A stretch of 64,000 nt of DNA from Rhodoferax sp. BLA1 (lineage in GTDB: Bacteria > Pseudomonadota > Gammaproteobacteria > Burkholderiales > Burkholderiaceae_C). The stretch's first letter is position 1, and each line of letters starts with the position of its first letter. Of this stretch, positions 35,998 through 59,955 are shown in pieces. A model generated the notes under the pieces. The model was not told the DNA's origin, searched no databases, and saw only the letters and a list, made by a program, of their open reading frames with translations. Position numbers and translations under genes: made by a program. The stretch lies in NCBI RefSeq assembly GCF_013416775.1, contig NZ_SZVI01000009.1, positions 372,001 through 436,000 of the forward strand. The letters run 5' to 3'.

Positions 35998-36606
35998 TCA
36001 GCTGTTTTTTCTGCGACGTGAATAACTCAAGCCTGCAACTGCCAAACCAATCAAGGCAAGTGAGCCTGGCTCTGGCACTGACTGGGTGTTCGACAATTCA
36101 AATCTGGCAGTGTGAGTTGAACCTGAGGCATTCAGGTCATCAATTGCGTACAAAACAGACCCACTGGAATCCTTGAACACAATATCGTAAATATCGCGAG
36201 AAGAGCAGCAGTCCGTGCGACCCCAAATTTGAAACAAATCAAGTTCAGCAACGCTGGCAAAAGTGATCGTCAGCGTATCGAAACTGGTGTCTCTTCCTTC
36301 ATGGAAGATATTTCCACTGCCAAAGTCGCCCAACGTGCTGCCATCAATTGCCTTTGCTGGCATTGAAATCGAGCTCCACCAGTCAGGTGCATTGGCGGTA
36401 GCACCGTTCGATGCAAGTGCCACATTCACCGCCGATGTGTTGAATGCTTGCACTTCAGCCACCTGGAGATAAAGGTTCATCGCGTTGGAAATTTCAATTG
36501 TTTTAACGCCAACCAATCCGGCATGCGCCGTGACAGTCAACCCCGTCAACAACGATAAGGCAATAGTTGCGCCTTTTAAAAACCGGGGAATAGCAGAGTT
36601 CAACAT
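35998..36606 (-). CDS. PEP-CTERM sorting-domain protein with galactose-binding-like module
   Basis: 202 residues from the ATG at 36606 (MLNSAIPRFLKGATIALSLL), which gives a clean signal peptide ending near THAGL (VTAHAG). The mature part (NLYLQVAEVQAFN, SSISMPAKAIDGST, FHEGRDTSFDTLTITFASVAELDLFQIWGRTDCCSSRDIYDIVFKD) resembles F5/8 type C or discoidin-like carbohydrate-binding folds. The C-terminus VPEPGSLALIGLAVAGLSY then SRRRK is a classic PEP-CTERM exosortase signal: PEP, membrane helix, basic tail. It is expected to be exported, cut at PEP and released or attached at the cell surface with the EPS. A sigma-54 promoter precedes it. It lies downstream of the EPS operon on the same strand. Confidence 0.9.
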   Translation of the reverse strand: MLNSAIPRFLKGATIALSLLTGLTVTAHAGLVGVKTIEISNAMNLYLQVAEVQAFNTSAVNVALASNGATANAPDWWSSISMPAKAIDGSTLGDFGSGNIFHEGRDTSFDTLTITFASVAELDLFQIWGRTDCCSSRDIYDIVFKDSSGSVLYAIDDLNASGSTHTARFELSNTQSVPEPGSLALIGLAVAGLSYSRRRKNS

Positions 36607-36642
36607 GCAGAAAGTTTCATAAAAGTTTGCGATAGACAATTT

Positions 36643-36663
36643 AAAGCAAAAAACGCGCCAAAT
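36643..36663 (-). promoter_or_regulatory. Sigma-54 promoter of the PEP-CTERM gene
   Basis: On the minus strand TTTGGCGCGTTTTTTGCTTT matches the -24/-12 consensus TGGCACG-N4-TTGCW, with GG and GC exactly ten bases apart. The predicted start of transcription is about 36634, leaving a leader of about 28 bases. PEP-CTERM genes in EPS-forming betaproteobacteria are known to be RpoN-dependent through PrsK/PrsR-type regulators; none of these is in the window. Confidence 0.7.
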
Positions 36664-36824
36664 ATCAAATACAGAAAAAAACCAAGCAAAATCAATAGCC
36701 AAGAAATCAAAAGTTGAACTGCCATAGTGACTCACCTGCGGGAAAGGAAAAAATGTAAAAAATTCCGACAGTTGACAGTGAATGTGCAAAGAAGAAGAGA
36801 CAGAAACACGTTGACAAGCAAATT

Positions 36825-50749: not shown

Positions 50750-51190
50750 ATGATCAGCAGCCAAGCCTGCAGTCGGGCTGCCTGGCCAGAATGGTTATTG
50801 AAAGAGGGTGTCAGCTTGTTCACAAAATCGGTTTCAAACAGTAGGCAGCGCGTGTGGCGCGTGATGGCGACTTTGCTGGCGGTGATGTTGCCCGTGGGTT
50901 TGTGGGTGGGCGGTGCGCAGCCGATAGCCGTGGGACTGATTCCTGCGCCATGGGACAAGCTGGCTCATGCAGGCGTGTTTGCCCTGTTGGCCATGGCACT
51001 GGGTTATGCCAGCGGCCTGCGCAGACTTGCCCTGCTGCTGCTGGCGTTTGCCGGCGCCTTGGGCGTGGGCGTGGTGGACGAGTGGCATCAGTTGTTCCTT
51101 CCAGGGCGCAGTGCTGACCTGGACGACCTGACCGCCGACGCCATAGGCGCCGCACTGGGTGCGTGGGCCATTTACTTCAAGCATCGTTAA
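50750..51190 (+). CDS. VanZ-like family membrane protein
   Basis: Up to 146 residues, on the opposite strand to the EPS genes. Four hydrophobic segments and the VanZ-like pattern PAPWDKLAHAGVFALLAMALGYA ... GVGVVDEWHQLFLPGRSADLDDLTADAIGAALG: the DKxxH and DExxQxFxPGRxxxxxDxxAN-type blocks. VanZ-like genes are frequent in EPS/exosortase loci; the role is unknown. The start is uncertain; a later in-frame TTG (50816) would remove a polar N-terminus. Its last 14 bases overlap the end of epsG head to head. Confidence 0.75.
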   Translation: MISSQACSRAAWPEWLLKEGVSLFTKSVSNSRQRVWRVMATLLAVMLPVGLWVGGAQPIAVGLIPAPWDKLAHAGVFALLAMALGYASGLRRLALLLLAFAGALGVGVVDEWHQLFLPGRSADLDDLTADAIGAALGAWAIYFKHR

Positions 51191-52049
51191 GCACCGAGCC
51201 GATCAGCGCCACGCCGCTGGCCTGCAGGCGTTGGGCGAGCTGGGTGGTGGCGGTGAGCAAAGAGGTGTTTTTGCGCGTCACGATCAGGGCGGCTCCGGCG
51301 CGAGCGGCAATGACCTCGGCGTCGGCATAGTCAGCACCGGCGGGCGTATCGATCAAGATCACGTCAAATTGCTGAGAAACACTGTGGAGCTGCCTGCCAA
51401 AGCTGGTGTTGCCCAACAACTCTTGAGGATTGGGCGGTACGGCACCAGCGGGCAGCACCACCAAGTTGCTCAGGCCGGGCACAGCCTGCATGGCTTCTTC
51501 CAGGCTGGCACGGTCTGCCAACACGGCCGACAAGCCGTGACCGCGCTCCAGCTTGAACAGGCTGTGCTGGCCGCGCTCGGGTTTGGCGCGTAGGTCGGCA
51601 TCAATCAGCAGCGTACGCTGGCCTTGCTGGGCAAAAACGATAGCCAGGTTGGCGGTGACAAAGCTGCGGCCCTCACCCACGCCAGCACTTACCACAGCCA
51701 GCACCTTGCGAGCCCGGTCACCATTGAACCAGCGCAGCATGAGCTGGCTGCGCACGGCGCGTATGTTTTCGCTGGCCACACCAAAGGGCTGGTAGGCGGC
51801 CACCAGTTCTGGGCTGAGACGGGTGTCGGCCGGGCTCAGGTAGGCGTAGTGAAACTGTTGGCTCAGTGCCTGGTCGATATCGTCTTTGGTGAGCAGATTC
51901 AGGGCAATGGCGGCTTCGCCAAACGGGGTGTGATTTTGCACCTGGCTGTCGAGTATGCGCTGCAGGTTGGCCGGGCTCAGGCGGCCACTGGCCAGCAGAA
52001 TGTCACCCATGCTGCGGCTCGCGGTGTTGATGGGAACAGGAGCGTTCAT
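51177..52049 (-). CDS. epsG: Chain-length determinant ATPase, EpsG family (BY-kinase-like)
   Basis: 290 residues. N-terminal small domain (about 12-75, SMGDILLASGRLSPANLQRIL and QALSQQFHYAYL), then a MinD-like ATPase: VLAVVSAGVGEGRSFVTANLAIVF (P-loop with Arg128 where Walker A lysine is usual), TLLIDADLRAKPERG (Walker A'), and VILIDTPAGADYADAEVIAARAGAALIVTRK (Walker B). It lacks the tyrosine-rich tail of classical BY-kinases. It partners EpsF to control EPS chain length and export. The start overlaps the epsF stop (ATGA). Confidence 0.88.
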   Translation of the reverse strand: MNAPVPINTASRSMGDILLASGRLSPANLQRILDSQVQNHTPFGEAAIALNLLTKDDIDQALSQQFHYAYLSPADTRLSPELVAAYQPFGVASENIRAVRSQLMLRWFNGDRARKVLAVVSAGVGEGRSFVTANLAIVFAQQGQRTLLIDADLRAKPERGQHSLFKLERGHGLSAVLADRASLEEAMQAVPGLSNLVVLPAGAVPPNPQELLGNTSFGRQLHSVSQQFDVILIDTPAGADYADAEVIAARAGAALIVTRKNTSLLTATTQLAQRLQASGVALIGSVLNDA

Positions 52050-53395
52050 GCGGGGACTCCGGTGTGGGCAATGCTGCCAAGCAAAGGCAGTTTGAGCACG
52101 TCAGCCAGGTCGGCAGCGCTGCGTACGCGGGGGTTGGCCAGTTCAAGCAGCAGCGCCAGACCCACGCCCAGCAGTGTGCCCAAAAAAATGGACACCAAGA
52201 TGTTCAGCAACACCCTGGGTTTTGACGGGCCCGCCGGGGTCGAGGCGGGGTTGAGCAGCGCGATGTTGGTCTGATTGGCCTGGCTCTCGATGTTGGTTTG
52301 TGAAGCGCGCAGACTCACCGCCTCAAAGGCGCGCTGGGCAGATTCAATCTCGCGGCGCAACACGTTGAGCTCGTCACGCTGTTTGTTCAACGCCAGCACG
52401 CGGGCTTTTTGGCCAGCCAGGGCACCTTGTAGCTGGGCCTCGCGCTGTTTGCCAACCCGGTAGGTGGTTTCGATGCTGCTGGTGATTTGGCGGGTTTCCT
52501 GGGCCAACTGGGCCTTCAGGGTGGCCAGTTCGGCTTCGCTGCGCTGGGTTTGCGGGTGGTTTTTGCCCAGGTTGCCACTGTTCTCGGTGAGTTTGGCTTC
52601 CAGGCGGGCAATGTCGGCTTTCAGGCCATTGATCAGTGGACTTTGCATAACCTCGGCCACGGTGTCAGCCTGAGTGCTGCCGCGTTTGCTTTGGCTGTCT
52701 GTGGTCAGGGCCTGAATGCCGGTGAGCTGGCTGCTGGTCTCATTCAACTTCGCAGTTTCGAAGTCAACCCGCTCGTCCACCGAGGTGATGCCGTTGGCCT
52801 GCTGGTAGTCAGACAGGGCCTTTTGAGCGATTTCAAGTTTGGCGCGAGCGGCTTTGGTTTGCTCTTCAAAAAACGCAGCGTATTGCCTGGCTGGCGCAAG
52901 ACGCAGATCCAAATTGACGTTGATATATGACTGGGCAAAGGCGTTGGCGACTGCGGCAGCAAAGTCGGGGTCGGTGCCGGTGTAATTGATATTGACGACG
53001 TTGCTTTCGCGGCTGGGTTTGACGCCCAGCTGCCTTTCCAATTCGGTCGCAAGCCAGTCAGTAAGCTGACCCCTGCCGCCAGTGGCATCGCGCCACTGCT
53101 GCTGCACCATGTCGTTGGTGTCACGCATGAGCAGCTTGACCACGTCTTTGGCAACGCGGTCGCTTTTGATAATGTCAATCTGCGTCGCCATGTAGCCGGG
53201 GGCCACCGTGCCTTGCAGCGTGAGGCCACTAACCAACTCTGGCGATTTGACATCAATCACCACAGCGGCACTGGCGGTGTATTGTTTTGGCAGCAGCAGA
53301 TTGACGGCCACCGTGGTGACCATGGTGGCCAACAAGACCAGCAACGCCACTTTGTAGCGCGCTCGCAGAATAAGGAATAGCTGTTGGACAGTCAT
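52046..53395 (-). CDS. epsF: Chain-length determinant protein, EpsF family (Wzz/PCP)
   Basis: 449 residues. Polysaccharide co-polymerase: first membrane helix about 17-37 (VALLVLLATMVTTVAVNLLLP), a long periplasmic coiled-coil-rich domain (about 60-400), and a second helix near the C-terminus (VLLNILVSIFLGTLLGVGLALLLEL) preceded by a proline-rich NPASTPAGPSKP segment. This is the EpsF/GumC-like layout. It sits in the inner membrane between EpsE outside and EpsG inside. Confidence 0.92.
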   Translation of the reverse strand: MTVQQLFLILRARYKVALLVLLATMVTTVAVNLLLPKQYTASAAVVIDVKSPELVSGLTLQGTVAPGYMATQIDIIKSDRVAKDVVKLLMRDTNDMVQQQWRDATGGRGQLTDWLATELERQLGVKPSRESNVVNINYTGTDPDFAAAVANAFAQSYINVNLDLRLAPARQYAAFFEEQTKAARAKLEIAQKALSDYQQANGITSVDERVDFETAKLNETSSQLTGIQALTTDSQSKRGSTQADTVAEVMQSPLINGLKADIARLEAKLTENSGNLGKNHPQTQRSEAELATLKAQLAQETRQITSSIETTYRVGKQREAQLQGALAGQKARVLALNKQRDELNVLRREIESAQRAFEAVSLRASQTNIESQANQTNIALLNPASTPAGPSKPRVLLNILVSIFLGTLLGVGLALLLELANPRVRSAADLADVLKLPLLGSIAHTGVPA

Positions 53396-54252
53396 CAGAA
53401 CAGGCTTTCTTTGACATAGATGACGTCATTGGGGAACACGGTGTCGGTGAGCTGAGGCTCCAACTCGGTGATGCTGCCGCTAGCGTCCTTGCGATGCAGG
53501 CGCAGGCGTTTTTCGGAGCCGCGGGTGGTGGGACCGCCGCCTTGGGCCAGAGCCTGCATCACGGTCATGCCGCGCTCAATGCGGTAGGCACCAGGGCGTT
53601 GGGCTTCGCCATAGATATAGAACACCGGGGCACGGTGCACATAAATGGCGTCGCCGCCTTGCAGCACGATGTCCTCTGCAGCGTCGTCTGTAAGAAACAG
53701 CTGGGGAATGTCGATGAGCTTGCGAAAAGGCTTGCCGCCACGCACGCCGGTGACGATGGCCATGTCGTCACCGGTGGTGGTGGCACCACCTGCGTTGGCC
53801 AGCATATCGGTCACACGGGTGTTGGCTGTTTCCATGGGAAAACGACCGGGGCGGTTGACCTGACCCAGAACGGCCACCTGGTTGCCGCGGATTTGCGTGA
53901 GCAGGATGGTGACCTGAGGCTGCTTGATGAAGTCACCGGCCTGAAGCGCGGTGGCAATTTTTTTCTCGGCCGCGCCAATGGAGAGACCACCCAGGCTGAC
54001 CGTGCCGATCAGTGGGAAGGTGATGGTGCCGTTTTCTGAAACGCGAGTTTCGATGGTGAGATCAGGGTTTTGAAACACCTGGATGCGCAGGGCATCACCC
54101 GCACCCAGCGGGTAGTCAGGCTGGGTGGTACGACTGGGGAGCAAGTTGCCTGCCGCCGACTGTGCGTGCGCCAGTGGGCCAAGGCCGCCCAGGGTGACCA
54201 GGGAGGCAAGCAAAAGGTGGATCAGGCGGAAGTGACGGGTGGGCATGGACAT
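53395..54252 (-). CDS. epsE: Polysaccharide export outer-membrane protein, EpsE family (Wza-like)
   Basis: 285 residues. Signal peptide about 1-30 (LIHLLLASLVTLGGLGPLAHAQS); there is no lipobox cysteine, unlike E. coli Wza. Poly_export domain: DYPLGAGDALRIQVFQNPDLTIETRVSENGTITFPLIGTVSLGGLSI. Two SLBB domains follow: VAVLGQVNRPGRFPME and FYIYGEAQRPGAYRIERGMTVMQALAQGGG. Forms the periplasm-to-surface channel for EPS. It shares one base with epsF. Confidence 0.93.
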   Translation of the reverse strand: MSMPTRHFRLIHLLLASLVTLGGLGPLAHAQSAAGNLLPSRTTQPDYPLGAGDALRIQVFQNPDLTIETRVSENGTITFPLIGTVSLGGLSIGAAEKKIATALQAGDFIKQPQVTILLTQIRGNQVAVLGQVNRPGRFPMETANTRVTDMLANAGGATTTGDDMAIVTGVRGGKPFRKLIDIPQLFLTDDAAEDIVLQGGDAIYVHRAPVFYIYGEAQRPGAYRIERGMTVMQALAQGGGPTTRGSEKRLRLHRKDASGSITELEPQLTDTVFPNDVIYVKESLF

Positions 54253-54322
54253 CTTTGATGTGGATAGATTCTAGGGAGTATGAAATAGCAGATGTGGTGT
54301 TTCATTCCAACCATCCACTCCA

Positions 54323-54373
54323 TTTTTTATAGCTATAGACCAATTGATTTTGAAGGGTAGAGCCGTATTTCTC
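54323..54373 (-). repeat. Dispersed palindromic repeat, copy 12 (degenerate)
   Basis: TTTTTTATAGCTATAGACCA, then ATTGATTTTGAAGGGTAGAGCCGTATT. It retains the TAGCTAT arm and AAGGGTAGAGCC arm but has lost most pairing. It occupies the epsL-epsE gap. Confidence 0.5.
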
Positions 54374-54411
54374 TTTCGATATGGATGTGTGGACATGTGG
54401 TGGAGGCATGG

Positions 54412-55629
54412 CTAAAAACTGAAATCGGCCGACAGTTTGCCCACGGTGCTGCTGTAGTCAAGCGGGGCAAGATTGGTGACGGCGGCATCACGCGTGCTTT
54501 TTTTCAGCGAGGCGTTGAAAGCCACAAACTGGAAAGGCTGCCAGTTGAGTGACAAGCTGGCGTCACGCAAAGTGTCCTTGCGCTGGGTGATCGACCCAGC
54601 GTCGGGCGCGCCCAGGTAGTCGATGTAGGTCAGGTCATAACGCAGGCCCAAATAAGTTTTGCTACCAATGCGCCAGGTGGGGCCAAGTGATAGCCGGTTA
54701 CTCAGGGTGTGATTGGAGTAGCCAGTCTGATAACTGCCGAGTTGACGAGCCCAGCTTGCGGCCAGGGCAGTTTTGCCGGTGATGTTCCAGTTGATGGCAA
54801 CACCTGTGTTAAAGCCACTGTAGTCGCGTTGAGGCTGACTCGGGTGGTTGCGGTCGATGTGAACGGCGCTTAAGTTAGCGGTGGTGTTGCCTGACAGTAC
54901 CCAGGACAGGTTGACCCCATTGTCAATCTGGTCGAATTCGCGATTGTTGGCGCTGGCGGTGAGGTATCTGCCGCTGGAGGTTTTGAGGTTGTAGGTGAAC
55001 ACACTGTTGGAGCCAGATGCACGGCGCACGCCCACGCTGGCCGTGTTGGCGTTGTAGTCGTCCCCCGTACCCAGAGCCACCTGATTGGTTTGGTTGGTGC
55101 GCGACAGACCGGCCAGCAAGCTCCAGGTGCCGTCCATGTCATAAATGGCGTCAAACCCGGTGTTGCTGGTGGTACGCAGGTTGCGCTGGGTGACGTCGGG
55201 AGCGTCAGAAGGATTGTTGGGTGTTACCAGGCGGTCCGCAGTCAGGCTGCCATGAAAACGCGGTGTGATGCTCCAGCGCCAGGCGGCAGCGTAGTTGGTG
55301 GCCGTAAAGCTGTATTGGCTGAAGTTTTGGTAGCTGTAGTCGAGCACGCTCAGGTCCAACTCCAGGCGTTGCAAGCTGTAGGCTTTGTTGAAGGACACTC
55401 CCAGCGTGCTGATGCCAATGCGCTCGGCCGTGCTATCGCGGCCAGTTTGGGCCGAGACGTTAGCGCTGGCGGGCAGGCGCTGCAGGTTGCTGTCGGACTG
55501 GAGTGTGTAGTCGGCGCGGAACATGAGCGTGTCTTGGACTTGGACAAGGTCTTGCTGCTGCGCCCGCGCAGACGTTGTACTGATCAACGCCAGCAGAGTC
55601 ACCAGCCAAAATGCTTGGGCTTGCAGCAT
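54412..55629 (-). CDS. epsL: EpsL-type outer-membrane beta-barrel protein of the EPS locus
   Basis: 405 residues. Signal peptide about 1-23 (LVTLLALISTTSARAQ), then alternating polar/hydrophobic strands typical of a beta-barrel and a C-terminal phenylalanine (KLSADFSF), the outer-membrane sorting residue. The pattern SLQRLELDLSVLDYSYQNFSQYSFTATNYAAAWRW fits the EpsL family found in PEP-CTERM EPS operons. Its role in export or assembly is not established. It lies 3 bp after the priming transferase gene. Confidence 0.83.
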   Translation of the reverse strand: MLQAQAFWLVTLLALISTTSARAQQQDLVQVQDTLMFRADYTLQSDSNLQRLPASANVSAQTGRDSTAERIGISTLGVSFNKAYSLQRLELDLSVLDYSYQNFSQYSFTATNYAAAWRWSITPRFHGSLTADRLVTPNNPSDAPDVTQRNLRTTSNTGFDAIYDMDGTWSLLAGLSRTNQTNQVALGTGDDYNANTASVGVRRASGSNSVFTYNLKTSSGRYLTASANNREFDQIDNGVNLSWVLSGNTTANLSAVHIDRNHPSQPQRDYSGFNTGVAINWNITGKTALAASWARQLGSYQTGYSNHTLSNRLSLGPTWRIGSKTYLGLRYDLTYIDYLGAPDAGSITQRKDTLRDASLSLNWQPFQFVAFNASLKKSTRDAAVTNLAPLDYSSTVGKLSADFSF

Positions 55630-55632
55630 GGC

Positions 55633-57072
55633 TCAATAAGCCTTCTGGTCTTTCAAGACCAGGCGAATGGTTTTCAGGATGATGTCGATGTCAAGCTGCA
55701 GCGACCAGTGCCGCAGGTAGTCCAGGTCGTAGTCAATACGACCCTGCATCTTGTCCAGAGTGTCGGTCTCCCCCCGGTAGCCGTTGACCTGGGCCCAGCC
55801 GGTGATGCCGGGCTTGACCTTGTGACGCACCATGTAGCCCTTGATGAGTTTTCGGTACAGCTCGTTGTGAGCCACAGCGTGCGGGCGGGGGCCGACGATG
55901 CTCATGCGCCCCTGCAAGACGTTGACAAACTGGGGCAACTCATCAAGGGAGGTGCGACGCAAAAAGGCGCCCAAGGGGGTAATACGGGCGTCGTTCTTTT
56001 GTGCTTGCTGGATGTTGCCACCGTCTTCGGTAACCGTCATGGAGCGAAATTTGTAGACCAGGATCTCCTCACCATCGAGTCCGTAACGACGCTGCTTGAA
56101 GATGATGGGCCCGGACGAGGTCAGCTTGATGGCAATGGCAATGATCAGCAAGACCGGAAAGATCAGCGCCAAGATCAACACCGAGAAAACCACGTCGCTG
56201 ATACGTTTGACAGTACCGTTGGTGGCCTTGAACGGGGTTTCGCAGACTGAGATCACCGATGTGCCACAGACGCTGTCGGCTTGCCCCTGGATCAGGTCAG
56301 TAACAAACATATCTGGCACAAAGTAAATCGAAGCAGTGGTGTCCTTGAGTTCATCCAGCACATGCAGGATGCGCGGCTGGGACGCCATTGGTAAAGACAG
56401 ATAAATGAGTTTGATATTGTGGTCGCGCACAATGTGTGCCAACTGTTCGTGTTTGCCCAGCAGCTTGTAGCAATTGTTGGTGTCCAATCGTTCAGGGCTG
56501 CGGTTGTCCACAAAACCAATCAGCTTGATGCGTGAGTAGAGCGAGGCCGTGATGCCATTGGCCAGCGCCAAACCCTGTTCATTCATGCCCACAATCAACG
56601 CACGTTGGGCCGGACCCTGCCAGCTGAGCAGTAAAGGAGCCATTCTGCGAATGGCAAGGGCACTCCCGAACTTGCTGAGCGGCGCCAGCCACAACCACGT
56701 GTAAAGAACGCGTTCAGAGAAAGCGCTGGTATAACCCGTGACCCAACCCATGAGCAGCAGCAAGCTGGCGGTCCAGGCCCAGTTGATAACACTCTCACCG
56801 GCCAAGGACGCCACCGATGCTTGGAGGCGAGCGGTGCCCGGAAAAGATATGGCAAAGGTCACCAGCGACAACACAAGATATTGGGGCAGGATGGCGCCCT
56901 CAAAATAATGCGACAGCGCCCACAATGAAAACACATAGGCGACAGGACCAACAAAGGCCTCAAACTGGCTGAGCAGGTTGTCATTGCCCAGAGTGGATGT
57001 CCTCACTGCCGGTTTGACAGACGCAGGTGGCAAAGCCACCGGGGCATCAAGCAGACTGGGCATTTCAGGCAT
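55633..57072 (-). CDS. Undecaprenyl-phosphate glucose phosphotransferase (WcaJ-type priming transferase)
   Basis: 479 residues. Four or so N-terminal membrane helices (about 35-140), a CoA-binding-like Rossmann middle domain (RALIVGMNEQGLALANGI), a further helix (RISDVVFSVLILALIFPVLLIIAIAI) and the bacterial sugar transferase domain: SSGPIIFKQRRYGLDGEEILVYKFRSM, RRTSLDELPQFVNVLQGRMSIVGPRPHAVAHN, VKPGITGWAQVNGYRGETDTLDKM, RIDYDLDYLRHWSLQLDIDII. It starts EPS synthesis by placing a sugar phosphate on undecaprenyl phosphate. The start overlaps the epsA-like regulator gene. Confidence 0.93.
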   Translation of the reverse strand: MPEMPSLLDAPVALPPASVKPAVRTSTLGNDNLLSQFEAFVGPVAYVFSLWALSHYFEGAILPQYLVLSLVTFAISFPGTARLQASVASLAGESVINWAWTASLLLLMGWVTGYTSAFSERVLYTWLWLAPLSKFGSALAIRRMAPLLLSWQGPAQRALIVGMNEQGLALANGITASLYSRIKLIGFVDNRSPERLDTNNCYKLLGKHEQLAHIVRDHNIKLIYLSLPMASQPRILHVLDELKDTTASIYFVPDMFVTDLIQGQADSVCGTSVISVCETPFKATNGTVKRISDVVFSVLILALIFPVLLIIAIAIKLTSSGPIIFKQRRYGLDGEEILVYKFRSMTVTEDGGNIQQAQKNDARITPLGAFLRRTSLDELPQFVNVLQGRMSIVGPRPHAVAHNELYRKLIKGYMVRHKVKPGITGWAQVNGYRGETDTLDKMQGRIDYDLDYLRHWSLQLDIDIILKTIRLVLKDQKAY

Positions 57073-57877
57073 AACTGGTCAAGGCGGTGACTTTGCCCAC
57101 GGCCTGGGCACGGTTGCTGACATTGAGCTTCTTGAAAATGTTTCTCAGATGGCTCTTGATGGTGAATTCGCTGATGGTCAAGATGCGCCCGATCTCTGAG
57201 TTGGTCTTCCCCAGGGCAACCCATTGAAGAACTTCTTCTTCTCGATCAGACAAGCTGCTTTCAAGCATCTGTTGCGGTACCTTCGGATCGTCTGTCAAAG
57301 GGCCCGGTTGGGTTTGATGTGGCAGCAAAGCAACCTGACGCAAGCTGGCGTCAATGTAGGGCAGCACCTTGGCCATGGCGCTACGTTGGCTTGGACTGAA
57401 AGTAGGTATGTCGCTAAAAGCCAAATACAGACAGTCTTGGCTGCCACGCTCGTCTCGCATACCGTGCACCAAGACACAACGCATTGTTCCCAAGGCGTCT
57501 TTCAGTTGGGAGTTTGGGGTGGCATCTTGCAAGGAAAAACCGTCAACACCGGCATTGATGACAAAGGGAGTACCACCAAACTCGCTCCATCGCGTGAACA
57601 TGTGAAGCAGCATCGGCAGGATGGCGTCAGGGCATGAGTTGTGCGAACGCACACCAACCAGCGGGGAAATAATGTCGTGGCTGAGCTTGCCCTTTTCGAA
57701 GTTGCCCCAAGCCGCAATCAGGATGGCGTGTGGCAGGTAGTGCTGCATGTCGCCTTGCAGCCAAACCATCGCATCAAAATGGCTGCGTACTTGTGCAGCG
57801 CGGGCAACAGCGTTGTGAAATCGGTGCAGGTCATATTCGGACGTGGACGGTAAAAGAGCCATGGTTGTGCATTTCAT
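57065..57877 (-). CDS. epsA: LuxR-family regulator, EpsA type (copy 1)
   Basis: 270 residues from the ATG at 57877; an ATG at 57862 (MALLPSTSEYDL) is equally plausible, and neither has a clear ribosome-binding site. The N-terminal EpsA-specific sensor-like region (VRSHFDAMVWLQGDMQHYLPHAILIAAWGNFEKGKLSHDIISP) is of unknown ligand. The C-terminal LuxR helix-turn-helix is LSDREEEVLQWVALGKTNSEIGRILTISEFTIKSHLRNIFKKLNVSNRAQAV. It has no receiver or autoinducer domain. The 3' end overlaps the priming transferase gene by 8 bp, so it is the first gene of the EPS operon and likely its regulator. Paralogue of the gene at 59170. Confidence 0.9.
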   Translation of the reverse strand: MKCTTMALLPSTSEYDLHRFHNAVARAAQVRSHFDAMVWLQGDMQHYLPHAILIAAWGNFEKGKLSHDIISPLVGVRSHNSCPDAILPMLLHMFTRWSEFGGTPFVINAGVDGFSLQDATPNSQLKDALGTMRCVLVHGMRDERGSQDCLYLAFSDIPTFSPSQRSAMAKVLPYIDASLRQVALLPHQTQPGPLTDDPKVPQQMLESSLSDREEEVLQWVALGKTNSEIGRILTISEFTIKSHLRNIFKKLNVSNRAQAVGKVTALTSYA

Positions 57878-57984: not shown

Positions 57985-58007
57985 GGAGGCGGATTTCATC
58001 CGCCCCT
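57985..58007 (-). terminator. Stem-loop between microprotein gene and epsA
   Basis: GGCGGAT and ATCCGCC form a 7-bp stem around a 3-base loop, 25 bp after the microprotein stop codon. No U-run follows, so this may be an attenuator or processing site rather than a full terminator. Confidence 0.35.
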
Positions 58008-58031: not shown

Positions 58032-58202
58032 TCAGGAGTTGTTCGACTTGAAGCGGCGCCACACGATGACGGCCATCGTGCCAAGACCCAACAAAATCAT
58101 GCGGGAGCTTTGTGGCTCGTTGGTCAAACTTGCTGTGGATGCAAAAGCGCTCAGGCTCGACACGGCGAATGCGGCGGCTGCAGTGAGGGATGTCAGTGTC
58201 AT
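58032..58202 (-). CDS. 56-residue PEP-CTERM-like microprotein
   Basis: A short frame from ATG 58202 to TGA 58032. Residues 1-23 (MTLTSLTAAAAFAVSSLSAF) look like a signal peptide with a cut near FAS. After a mature stretch of fewer than ten residues comes EPQSSRMILLGLGTMAVIVW then RRFKSNNS. This has the layout of a PEP-CTERM signal (acidic-Pro, SS, L-L-G-L-G helix, basic tail), though the usual PEP is reduced to EP. GGAG lies nine bases before the ATG. A -10 box and a perfect dyad lie upstream. So it is almost only an export signal joined to a sorting signal. It lies between the Crp-like gene and epsA on the same strand. Confidence 0.65.
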   Translation of the reverse strand: MTLTSLTAAAAFAVSSLSAFASTASLTNEPQSSRMILLGLGTMAVIVWRRFKSNNS

Positions 58203-58244
58203 GGTGTATTACTCCGTGGCAAGTAGCAAGATCACTACGGGTAA

Positions 58245-58250
58245 ATACTA
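58245..58250 (-). promoter_or_regulatory. Candidate -10 box for the microprotein gene
   Basis: TAGTAT on the minus strand; predicted start about 58238, leader about 36 bases. No -35 match (TCGACG at the right place), which suggests an activator is needed. Confidence 0.4.
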
Positions 58251-58273: not shown

Positions 58274-58289
58274 TAGTCCGTTCGGACTA
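58274..58289. promoter_or_regulatory. Perfect dyad, candidate EpsA/LuxR-type operator
   Basis: TAGTCCG-TT-CGGACTA. Its edge abuts the -35 position of the promoter above, so its centre is near -43, the usual place for a LuxR-type activator box. Which protein binds is inferred only from neighbourhood. Confidence 0.45.
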
Positions 58290-58362: not shown

Positions 58363-58890
58363 TCAAAGAAAACCAACATCGGCCAGACCTGGCAACTTGT
58401 CGTTGGTAGCATGACGCAATTTGCTGGTGGTGGTGTGAAGCAAAGCGAGCATGATCTTGTTGCTCAAACGTGGGTGATCTGACAACAAGGCCATGAATTT
58501 GTCATGGGTGAGCACAGCAAAATCACTGGGCAAAGTGGTGACACAGCTGGCAAAGCGTTTTTGCCCGTCGAACATGGACATTTCGCCAACAATGTCGCCA
58601 GGCTTAACGACGTAAATCACTTTATCAAGGCCCTCGTGCAACTGGGTAATGACAGCGCCGCCCGTGATCAGAATAACCAAGTAGTCCCCCTCCTCGCCCT
58701 CGCGCAACACGGAAGAACAACGCGGTACACCAAAACACTCAAGGTAATCACCGAACAACAGGATTTCACGGCGGTTAATCCCCTCCAACAGACGCCCAGC
58801 CTGAACGGCGTGGATGAATTCGTTGAGATAGTCTCTAACTTTGCCCAGCGGTTGCACGCCTGGCTGGAGCTCTGCAAAGGGTGAATTCAT
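58363..58890 (-). CDS. Crp-like cyclic-nucleotide-binding-domain protein without DNA-binding domain
   Basis: 175 residues. A helical N-terminus (about 1-45) is followed by one cNMP-binding beta-roll: LECFGVPRCSSVLREGEEGDYLVILITGGAVITQ, KVIYVVKPGDIVGEMSMFDGQKRFASCVTTLPSDFAVLTHDKFMALL. The phosphate-binding cassette is degenerate (GEMSMFDGQKRFAS), so the ligand may not be cAMP. There is no helix-turn-helix; the C-terminus is a short helix. This small Crp-like protein type accompanies some PEP-CTERM EPS loci. It lies upstream of the microprotein gene and is divergent from the second epsA-like gene. A role as a c-di-GMP or other nucleotide sensor is only a guess. Confidence 0.85.
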   Translation of the reverse strand: MNSPFAELQPGVQPLGKVRDYLNEFIHAVQAGRLLEGINRREILLFGDYLECFGVPRCSSVLREGEEGDYLVILITGGAVITQLHEGLDKVIYVVKPGDIVGEMSMFDGQKRFASCVTTLPSDFAVLTHDKFMALLSDHPRLSNKIMLALLHTTTSKLRHATNDKLPGLADVGFL

Positions 58891-59169: not shown

Positions 59170-59955
59170 TTGAATATTCTCCAATCATCACTATCTCCTG
59201 CGGATATTCACCATTACCACCGTGTGGTCTCCCAATCAGCGGGGATTCGGACTCACTTCGACATGCTGATCTGGCTACAGGGGGAAATGCAGTATTACCT
59301 TCCGCATGACATCATGATCGCGGTATGGGGTAACTTCAACGAAGGTCAACTTCGCCACGACGTGATTTCACCCATGACCGGGGTCAGGTCACACAATGTG
59401 AACACCGACACACTGTCGCCGCTGCTGCTGCAGCTCTACCATCGCTGGACGCAGTACAGCAAAAGCCCCTACGCCATGAAAGTAGGAGAAAGCGGCTTTT
59501 TGTTGGAAGACACCGGGCTCCAATGCATGCTGGGTGATGCCCTGAAGTACATGCGTAGCGCGATGGTGCACGGCATTTGCGACGAGCGCCACGGCATTGA
59601 GTGTCTGTATGTCTCATTCAGCACCAAACCGGACTACAGCCAAGTGGACAGGGCGACTGTCACCGCAATCCTGCCTTACATTGATTCGGCCTTGCGTCAA
59701 GTTAGCCACTTACCTGAGCAGGCAAGCGTGGGCCCATTGACCCTGAAAGAGAACCTGAAACCCACCCATACCTTGTCAACCCGAGAAGTGGAAATCATGT
59801 ATTGGGTGGCACTGGGCAAAACCAACCCTGAAATTGGCTGCATCCTGAACATCAGCGAATTCACCGTGAAAAACCACATGCAGCGGGTTTTCAAGAAGCT
59901 TGATGTGATCAACCGGGCGCAAGCAGTGAGCAAGTTCAAAGAGCTGTGTGCCTAG
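59170..59955 (+). CDS. LuxR-family regulator, EpsA type (copy 2)
   Basis: 261 residues from a TTG at 59170; an ATT at 59161, eight bases after GGAG, is an alternative, and the frame closes upstream at 59143. The sensor-like part (IRTHFDMLIWLQGEMQYYLPHDIMIAVWGNFNEGQLRHDVISPMTGVRSHN) and LuxR helix-turn-helix (LSTREVEIMYWVALGKTNPEIGCILNISEFTVKNHMQRVFKKLDVINRAQAV) align throughout with the regulator at 57065. It is transcribed away from the EPS genes. The weak start codon and the hairpin suggest low or controlled translation. Confidence 0.88.
   Translation: MNILQSSLSPADIHHYHRVVSQSAGIRTHFDMLIWLQGEMQYYLPHDIMIAVWGNFNEGQLRHDVISPMTGVRSHNVNTDTLSPLLLQLYHRWTQYSKSPYAMKVGESGFLLEDTGLQCMLGDALKYMRSAMVHGICDERHGIECLYVSFSTKPDYSQVDRATVTAILPYIDSALRQVSHLPEQASVGPLTLKENLKPTHTLSTREVEIMYWVALGKTNPEIGCILNISEFTVKNHMQRVFKKLDVINRAQAVSKFKELCA

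Follow-up and report, generated by a model that had tools for sequence, protein, structure and literature searches.

The described systems closest to the gene reported here are those that link PEP-CTERM proteins with EPS loci. In the available parts of Haft et al. (2006; PMC1569441), 99 of the 167 PEP-CTERM genes from proteobacteria are reported to have a sigma-54/PrsR motif upstream, with further regulatory proteins and motifs said to be still awaiting discovery. The floc protein PepA of Aquincola tertiaricarbonis is presented, in the portion available of the corresponding report, as a full-length, RpoN-dependent PEP-CTERM protein tied to EPS (PMC9850573). The available sections of these two papers and of a third (PMC3684757) describe no minimal PEP-CTERM protein, and the titles and opening lines of abstracts of open-licence PubMed Central articles, among the matches listed, name neither a minimal PEP-CTERM protein nor such an operator. 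Here, we follow up a first-pass annotation of a 64,000-nucleotide stretch of Rhodoferax sp. BLA1 (contig NZ_SZVI01000009.1, positions 372,001 to 436,000 of the forward strand; hereafter the window, to which all unprefixed coordinates refer), which had singled out a 56-codon gene encoding little more than a signal peptide and a PEP-CTERM-like tail. With a probability of roughly 0.5, we propose that this gene is a kept, shortened descendant of the PEP-CTERM protein found in the same slot in relatives, and that its product is probably now a membrane micropeptide of the EPS regulon.

Gene and Locus Structure

The gene (MTLTSLTAAAAFAVSSLSAFASTASLTNEPQSSRMILLGLGTMAVIVWRRFKSNNS; 58202-58032) lies on the minus strand, the plus strand at 58032-58202 reading differently, and is preceded by a ribosome-binding site, GGAG (58212-58215, minus strand), 10-13 bases ahead of the ATG. 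Its product joins a signal-peptide-like N-terminus to a PEP-CTERM-type tail through a 7-residue spacer. The putative signal peptide (codons 1-21; 58140-58202, minus strand) was delimited by sequence reading and hydropathy; it shows a hydrophobic stretch and an AFA site, without Lys or Arg ahead of the stretch (as judged by hydropathy only), and cleavage would be expected after A21. The tail (codons 29-50; 58053-58118, minus strand), made of EPQSS, a hydrophobic span and RR, is matched by the Pfam PEP-CTERM model PF07589 at 22.4 bits, just above the cut-off of 20.7. The NCBIfam PEP-CTERM model TIGR02595 gives 12.6 bits, below its cut-off of 16, and the FxDxF model NF038126 gives 12.9 bits over the tail only, below its whole-protein cut-off of 50. 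The annotated architecture, a signal-peptide-like start and a PEP-CTERM-like tail with almost no mature domain between them, holds up; the HMM check suggested along with it divides, PF07589 backing the assignment and TIGR02595 not. An intact Pro-Glu-Pro is absent: the motif reads NEP in BLA1 and HEP in the orthologue from Rhodoferax sp. U2-2l (BLA1 and U2-2l being G000 and G084 in our genome set), the first Pro being lost in both. The BLA1 genome (4.46 Mb in 15 contigs, 99.95% complete) contains eight PEP-CTERM frames, of which the 56-codon gene is the shortest and the lowest-scoring, with 58 codons from stop to stop against 240 in the next shortest; the seven other tails all carry PEP followed by LALxGLALAG or a close variant. 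A full-length PEP-CTERM protein is also encoded within the window (35998-36789), its tail being similar to the tails of the remaining long PEP-CTERM proteins of BLA1.

As first annotated, the gene heads an EPS locus beside regulators. It is flanked downstream by epsA, encoding a LuxR-type regulator (57065-57862, minus strand; TIGR03020, 212 bits, cut-off 170), and upstream by a gene for a CRP-like protein (58363-58890, minus strand). A TTG at 58084, which would make epsA overlap the 56-codon gene, was rejected as the epsA start because the EpsA match begins within the frame opening at 57862. Downstream of epsA follow epsB-epsL-epsE-epsF-epsG (51177-57072, minus strand; HMM matches), and a second epsA lies on the plus strand (59170-59955; TIGR03020, 244 bits). 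Neither epsD, which relatives carry between epsL and epsE, nor xrtB-epsI, which they carry after epsG, was found in the BLA1 EPS locus. The CRP-like neighbour (175 residues) may lack a DNA-binding part, because it matches CRP at model positions 29-131 of 214 only, that is, in the cyclic-nucleotide-binding part. Palindromes occur upstream of its relatives in loci L112, L113, L118 and L119; none was found upstream of the CRP-like gene of the window at up to 2 mismatches.

Sequence Conservation

In U2-2l the same slot holds a frame of 56 codons, identical to that of BLA1 at 38 of 56 residues (68%) and free of indels. Nucleotide identity between the two is 77%, with 13, 7 and 19 differences at codon positions 1, 2 and 3, respectively; dS is 0.70 and dN 0.18, a dN/dS of about 0.25 drawn from two sequences only, and the comparison of changed synonymous and non-synonymous sites gives p = 1.9e-4 (Fisher's test). 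When the same substitutions were placed at random, at least 38 identities and no stop were obtained in 115/20000 trials, or in 50/20000 with the other copy as template. By part, identities amount to 15/22 in residues 1-22, 3/6 in residues 23-28, 19/25 in residues 29-53 and 1/3 in residues 54-56. Among five other frames taken as a control, dS exceeds dN by a smaller margin in three, one on the sense strand and two antisense (dS/dN of 0.41/0.24, 0.33/0.26 and 0.44/0.24); the remaining two are reversed. Drawn from two sequences, the case for coding constraint on the 56-codon frame is good but not overwhelming. A chance open frame was rejected on the excess of dS over dN, the Fisher value (p = 1.9e-4) and the 115/20000 random trials. 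With GGAG in place and the same length kept in U2-2l, the frame behaves as the real short gene claimed at first pass; it shows an excess of synonymous change, and conservation under the same gene order is found in one close relative.

The orthologue was reached via the epsA slot, and it is the sole other close match in 89 genomes of the genus searched with a two-row profile. A contig scan returned U2-2l and one Micavibrio match (39% identity, E 3e-4). Genome searches with the peptide or the two-row profile retrieved mostly generic PEP-CTERM tails, with matches in 15/60 genomes at E <= 0.1 and, in a second sample, in 53/399 at E <= 0.01; U2-2l belongs to neither sample. The form with 56 codons is present in two genomes only, BLA1 and U2-2l.

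The Slot across the Genus

EpsA was detected at E <= 1e-20 in 18 of the 89 genus genomes, and over the family cut-off in 16. With G072 and G091 (weak EpsA matches) left out, 17 EpsA regions were mapped together with the window, giving 18 loci. The slot beside epsA/epsB of the EPS operon holds a PEP-CTERM frame in 10 of them (the window, U2-2l, G024, G104, G061, G004, G017, G018, G093 and G063). Six of these frames, in G061, G004, G017, G018, G093 and G063, encode full-length proteins of about 166-187 residues from their likely starts; the four of the six that were tested against NF038126 (cut-off 50) score 101 (G004), 75 (G017), 66 (G018) and 94 bits (G093). Two further slot genes are short: that of G024 has 48 codons, with the signal peptide fused directly to VPEP, and that of G104 has 43 and has lost most of its signal peptide (in an assembly 75% complete). 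In G073, G102 and G034 an EPS operon is present, but its slot gave no flagged PEP-CTERM frame, nor did the two-row profile search find a close member there. Such an outcome is weak against diverged short genes, because the slot tail profile, seeded with some chance frames, scored the 56-codon genes at E 0.2 and 0.6 only; the U2-2l frame entered the slot map by hand. The G035 locus contains EpsA together with a CRP-like relative and gives no epsB or epsL match, and a second type of locus (4/18: G083, G095 and the second loci of G004 and G024) has a PEP-CTERM gene beside EpsA with no epsB or epsL match nearby. Across the genus, at least nine open PEP-CTERM frames of 100 codons or fewer occur among the matches listed, two of which occupy the slot in G024 and G104; of the other seven among these matches, three hit a contig end and four are without an evident signal peptide (by eye). 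The search for the same small frame in related EPS loci, proposed at first pass, thus succeeds in U2-2l and not elsewhere, where the slot gene is longer, apparently shortened independently, or not detected. In another family of the same order, three consecutive PEP-CTERM frames stand beside epsA (L159, 5518-7865).

Both the EpsB+EpsL tree and the EpsB tree group the window with U2-2l and G024 with G061 and G004, and pair G104 with G017. Because G061, G004 and G017 are full length, the short forms in window/U2-2l, G024 and G104 would most simply represent three events; an ancestral short slot form, with later gains, is conceivable as an alternative. The tree of the CRP-like proteins (6 sequences) places U2-2l with G024 and does not pair the window with U2-2l, a conflict with the EpsB trees suggesting that the locus may be mosaic. 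In the window/U2-2l lineage, the shortening and the loss of EpsD, exosortase B and EpsI would most simply be one event. As G024 keeps XrtB and both G024 and G104 have shortened slot genes, shortening can occur without XrtB being lost and might reflect decay. The 48 codons of G024, the 43 codons and damaged signal peptide of G104, and the slots of the G073, G102 and G034 EPS operons in which no PEP-CTERM frame was flagged could be cited for a slow relic: a substrate left purposeless by the loss of XrtB would be decaying, caught in BLA1 and U2-2l before its disappearance. We find such a relic rather unlikely, as frame, length and promoter have been kept over a dS of about 0.7, with a synonymous excess.

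Exosortases and Tail Type

The whole-genome exosortase search of BLA1 returned a single match, an XrtA with an EpsI domain, encoded on contig C7 outside the locus, and no XrtB. U2-2l also has one exosortase genome-wide, off-locus, with an N-terminus like that of BLA1 XrtA (not typed by HMM). By tblastn over the 18 loci, EpsD was found in 11 and a relative of XrtB in 9, all 9 also having EpsD; neither was found in the window or U2-2l loci, which are covered through epsG and beyond. EpsI, like EpsD sought in loci only (exosortases in whole genomes), was found in 5/18 loci, several regions being too short to reach its position. The other loci without XrtB comprise L116 and L124, which end at a contig end, L115, which has no operon, and the four of the second type. 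XrtB was identified by HMM, at 407-433 bits, in the in-locus exosortases of G061, G018 and G024 and in a second one elsewhere in G024. Each of the six full-length slot genes comes with an exosortase in its locus (the G017 one runs off the contig), and in G018, G063 and G093 this exosortase is the only one found in the genome, so that the slot tails of these three go with it.

In ungapped BLOSUM62 comparisons, the tails of the BLA1 and U2-2l genes score 44-59 against slot tails from seven relatives (the G104 tail being omitted); against BLA1's seven other PEP-CTERM tails they score 6-29. The gapped scores are 46-59 and 24-48, respectively. By this measure, the tail of the short gene is of the kind seen in XrtB-bearing EPS loci. 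That XrtA took over and cuts the peptide, which would then act as a competitor, a gauge or a minimal anchor along the lines of the first pass, might be argued from the presence of XrtA in BLA1 and from a PF07589 score above cut-off; the tail, however, scores lower against the PEP tails of its own genome than against relatives' slot tails, has lost the first Pro of PEP in both species and falls below the TIGR02595 cut-off, and we regard this takeover as very unlikely. The first-pass idea of a decoy or sensor substrate for an exosortase is weakened on similar grounds, because XrtB, the enzyme matching the tail type, is absent, the tail is closer to relatives' slot tails than to those of its own genome and the first Pro is lost.

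Promoter and Operon Structure

Upstream of the gene lies a palindrome, TAGTCCGAACGGACTA (58274-58289, minus strand), a putative operator and the only exact copy in the BLA1 genome, followed after 23 bases by a -10-like box, TAGTAT (58245-58250, minus strand). A sigma-70 consensus scan upstream of the gene found no promoter. The promoter elements claimed at first pass are thus retained in another form, as a palindrome with a -10-like box common to relatives. In 9 of the 10 genus slots, TAGTCC-N4-GGACTA (up to 2 mismatches) stands exactly 23 bases ahead of TANNNT, a pattern with a frequency of 0.0033 per position in these loci; no palindrome was found at the full-length slot gene of G063. Genus-wide, palindrome-N23-TANNAT (up to 1 mismatch) occurs at 23 sites in 16/89 genomes and the reversed control at 4. 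Visual inspection placed 13 of these 23 sites immediately ahead of PEP-CTERM frames, 2 ahead of signal-peptide frames without a recognized tail and 8 ahead of something else. EpsA is present in 10/16 genomes with the module and in 8/73 others (p = 3.8e-5, the weak EpsA genomes G072 and G091 being counted as holders); the other 6/16 have no EpsA match. Within BLA1, the full module has one exact match and, at up to 3 mismatches, 3 matches against 10 for the control; with at most 1 mismatch, the bare palindrome is found at fewer sites than its reversed control (3 vs 19). Outside the genus, among 40 fetched loci, the N23 module precedes PEP-CTERM genes only in L164 (two genes). A pilin-like frame close to a weak EpsA relative is likewise preceded by the module (L204; G072:C269:112704-112748). 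A 5' UTR stretch, TAGTATTTACCCGTAGTGATCTTGCTAC (58223-58250 of the window), is identical in the window and U2-2l and contains GTAG-N8-CTAC.

Given the -10-like box at 58250-58245, the centre of the palindrome would fall about 43 bases before the start of transcription, a position typical of class II activators, and the neighbouring LuxR-type EpsA probably binds there.

In 7 of the 10 slots (G024, G104, G061, G004, G017, G018 and G093), a hairpin with a U-tract lies behind the slot gene; no U-tract terminator was found there in the window, U2-2l or G063. In the window, the gene is followed by a hairpin without a U-tract on the minus strand (57988-58004), possibly an eroded terminator, and in U2-2l 72 bases separate the slot-gene stop from epsB. 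With the U-tract terminator missing, the EPS operon of the window/U2-2l lineage probably begins with the short gene as its first cistron. This arrangement opens the way to a reading in which the EPS operon captured the slot promoter after terminator loss and the peptide itself is inert, the frame being kept solely for the promoter and translational coupling that reside in its start, translation and 5' region. The missing terminators and the 72-base interval fit, and the close conservation of the palindrome, the -10-like box and the 5' UTR between the window and U2-2l, with a 3' flank that is not conserved, is explained equally well. The constraint on the amino acids is not (dN/dS of about 0.25, a joint null of 115/20000 and, in the tail, the best conserved part, 19/25 identities), and we consider an inert leader unlikely.

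Evolutionary Model

We favour a kept membrane micropeptide, as the constraint seems to act on the amino-acid sequence itself. The ancestor would have been the PEP-CTERM protein that heads the EpsA/XrtB-type EPS loci of the genus, of the FxDxF type in the four relatives tested. In the lineage of the window and U2-2l, EpsD, exosortase B and EpsI would have disappeared from the locus, and the mature domain from the substrate, with signal peptide, tail and promoter staying behind. After signal-peptidase cleavage, the product would be a 35-residue inner-membrane micropeptide with a single span (N-out/C-in), co-produced with the EPS enzymes and possibly influencing EPS assembly at the membrane. That the orphaned sorting signals were in this way exapted, and re-used as an EPS-promoter-driven membrane micropeptide that regulates EPS assembly, a role already raised at first pass, is a tentative extension that we hold possible rather than probable. 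Bolder still would be the proposal that signal peptidase and XrtA jointly release an extracytoplasmic signal peptide of about 9 residues. If the peptide works, a sorting tail would have outlived its sorting enzyme to become a functional micropeptide, and what a PEP-CTERM tail does alone could be tested.

PepA, in the parts available of its description, shares the link between PEP-CTERM and EPS; unlike the short gene, which is without a mature domain, it is full-length and RpoN-dependent, and its likeness suggests that the full-length slot relatives may have a matrix role (PMC9850573). With the FxDxF family (NF038126), the short gene has in common the slot and promoter module of the relatives' members, a signal-peptide-like N-terminus and a tail that aligns ungapped from Glu-Pro onwards; it differs in having no mature domain of ~120 residues and in the replacement of the first Pro of PEP. 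The PEP-CTERM/exosortase system, as set out in the available parts of Haft et al. (2006; PMC1569441), offers the same sorting-tail architecture and EPS-locus context; BLA1, on the other hand, has no XrtB, and the promoter consists of a palindrome and a -10-like box. The strict arrangement of palindrome, 23 bases and -10-like box ahead of PEP-CTERM genes in EpsA-bearing members of the genus is a candidate for a further regulatory class, alongside that of sigma-54/PrsR.
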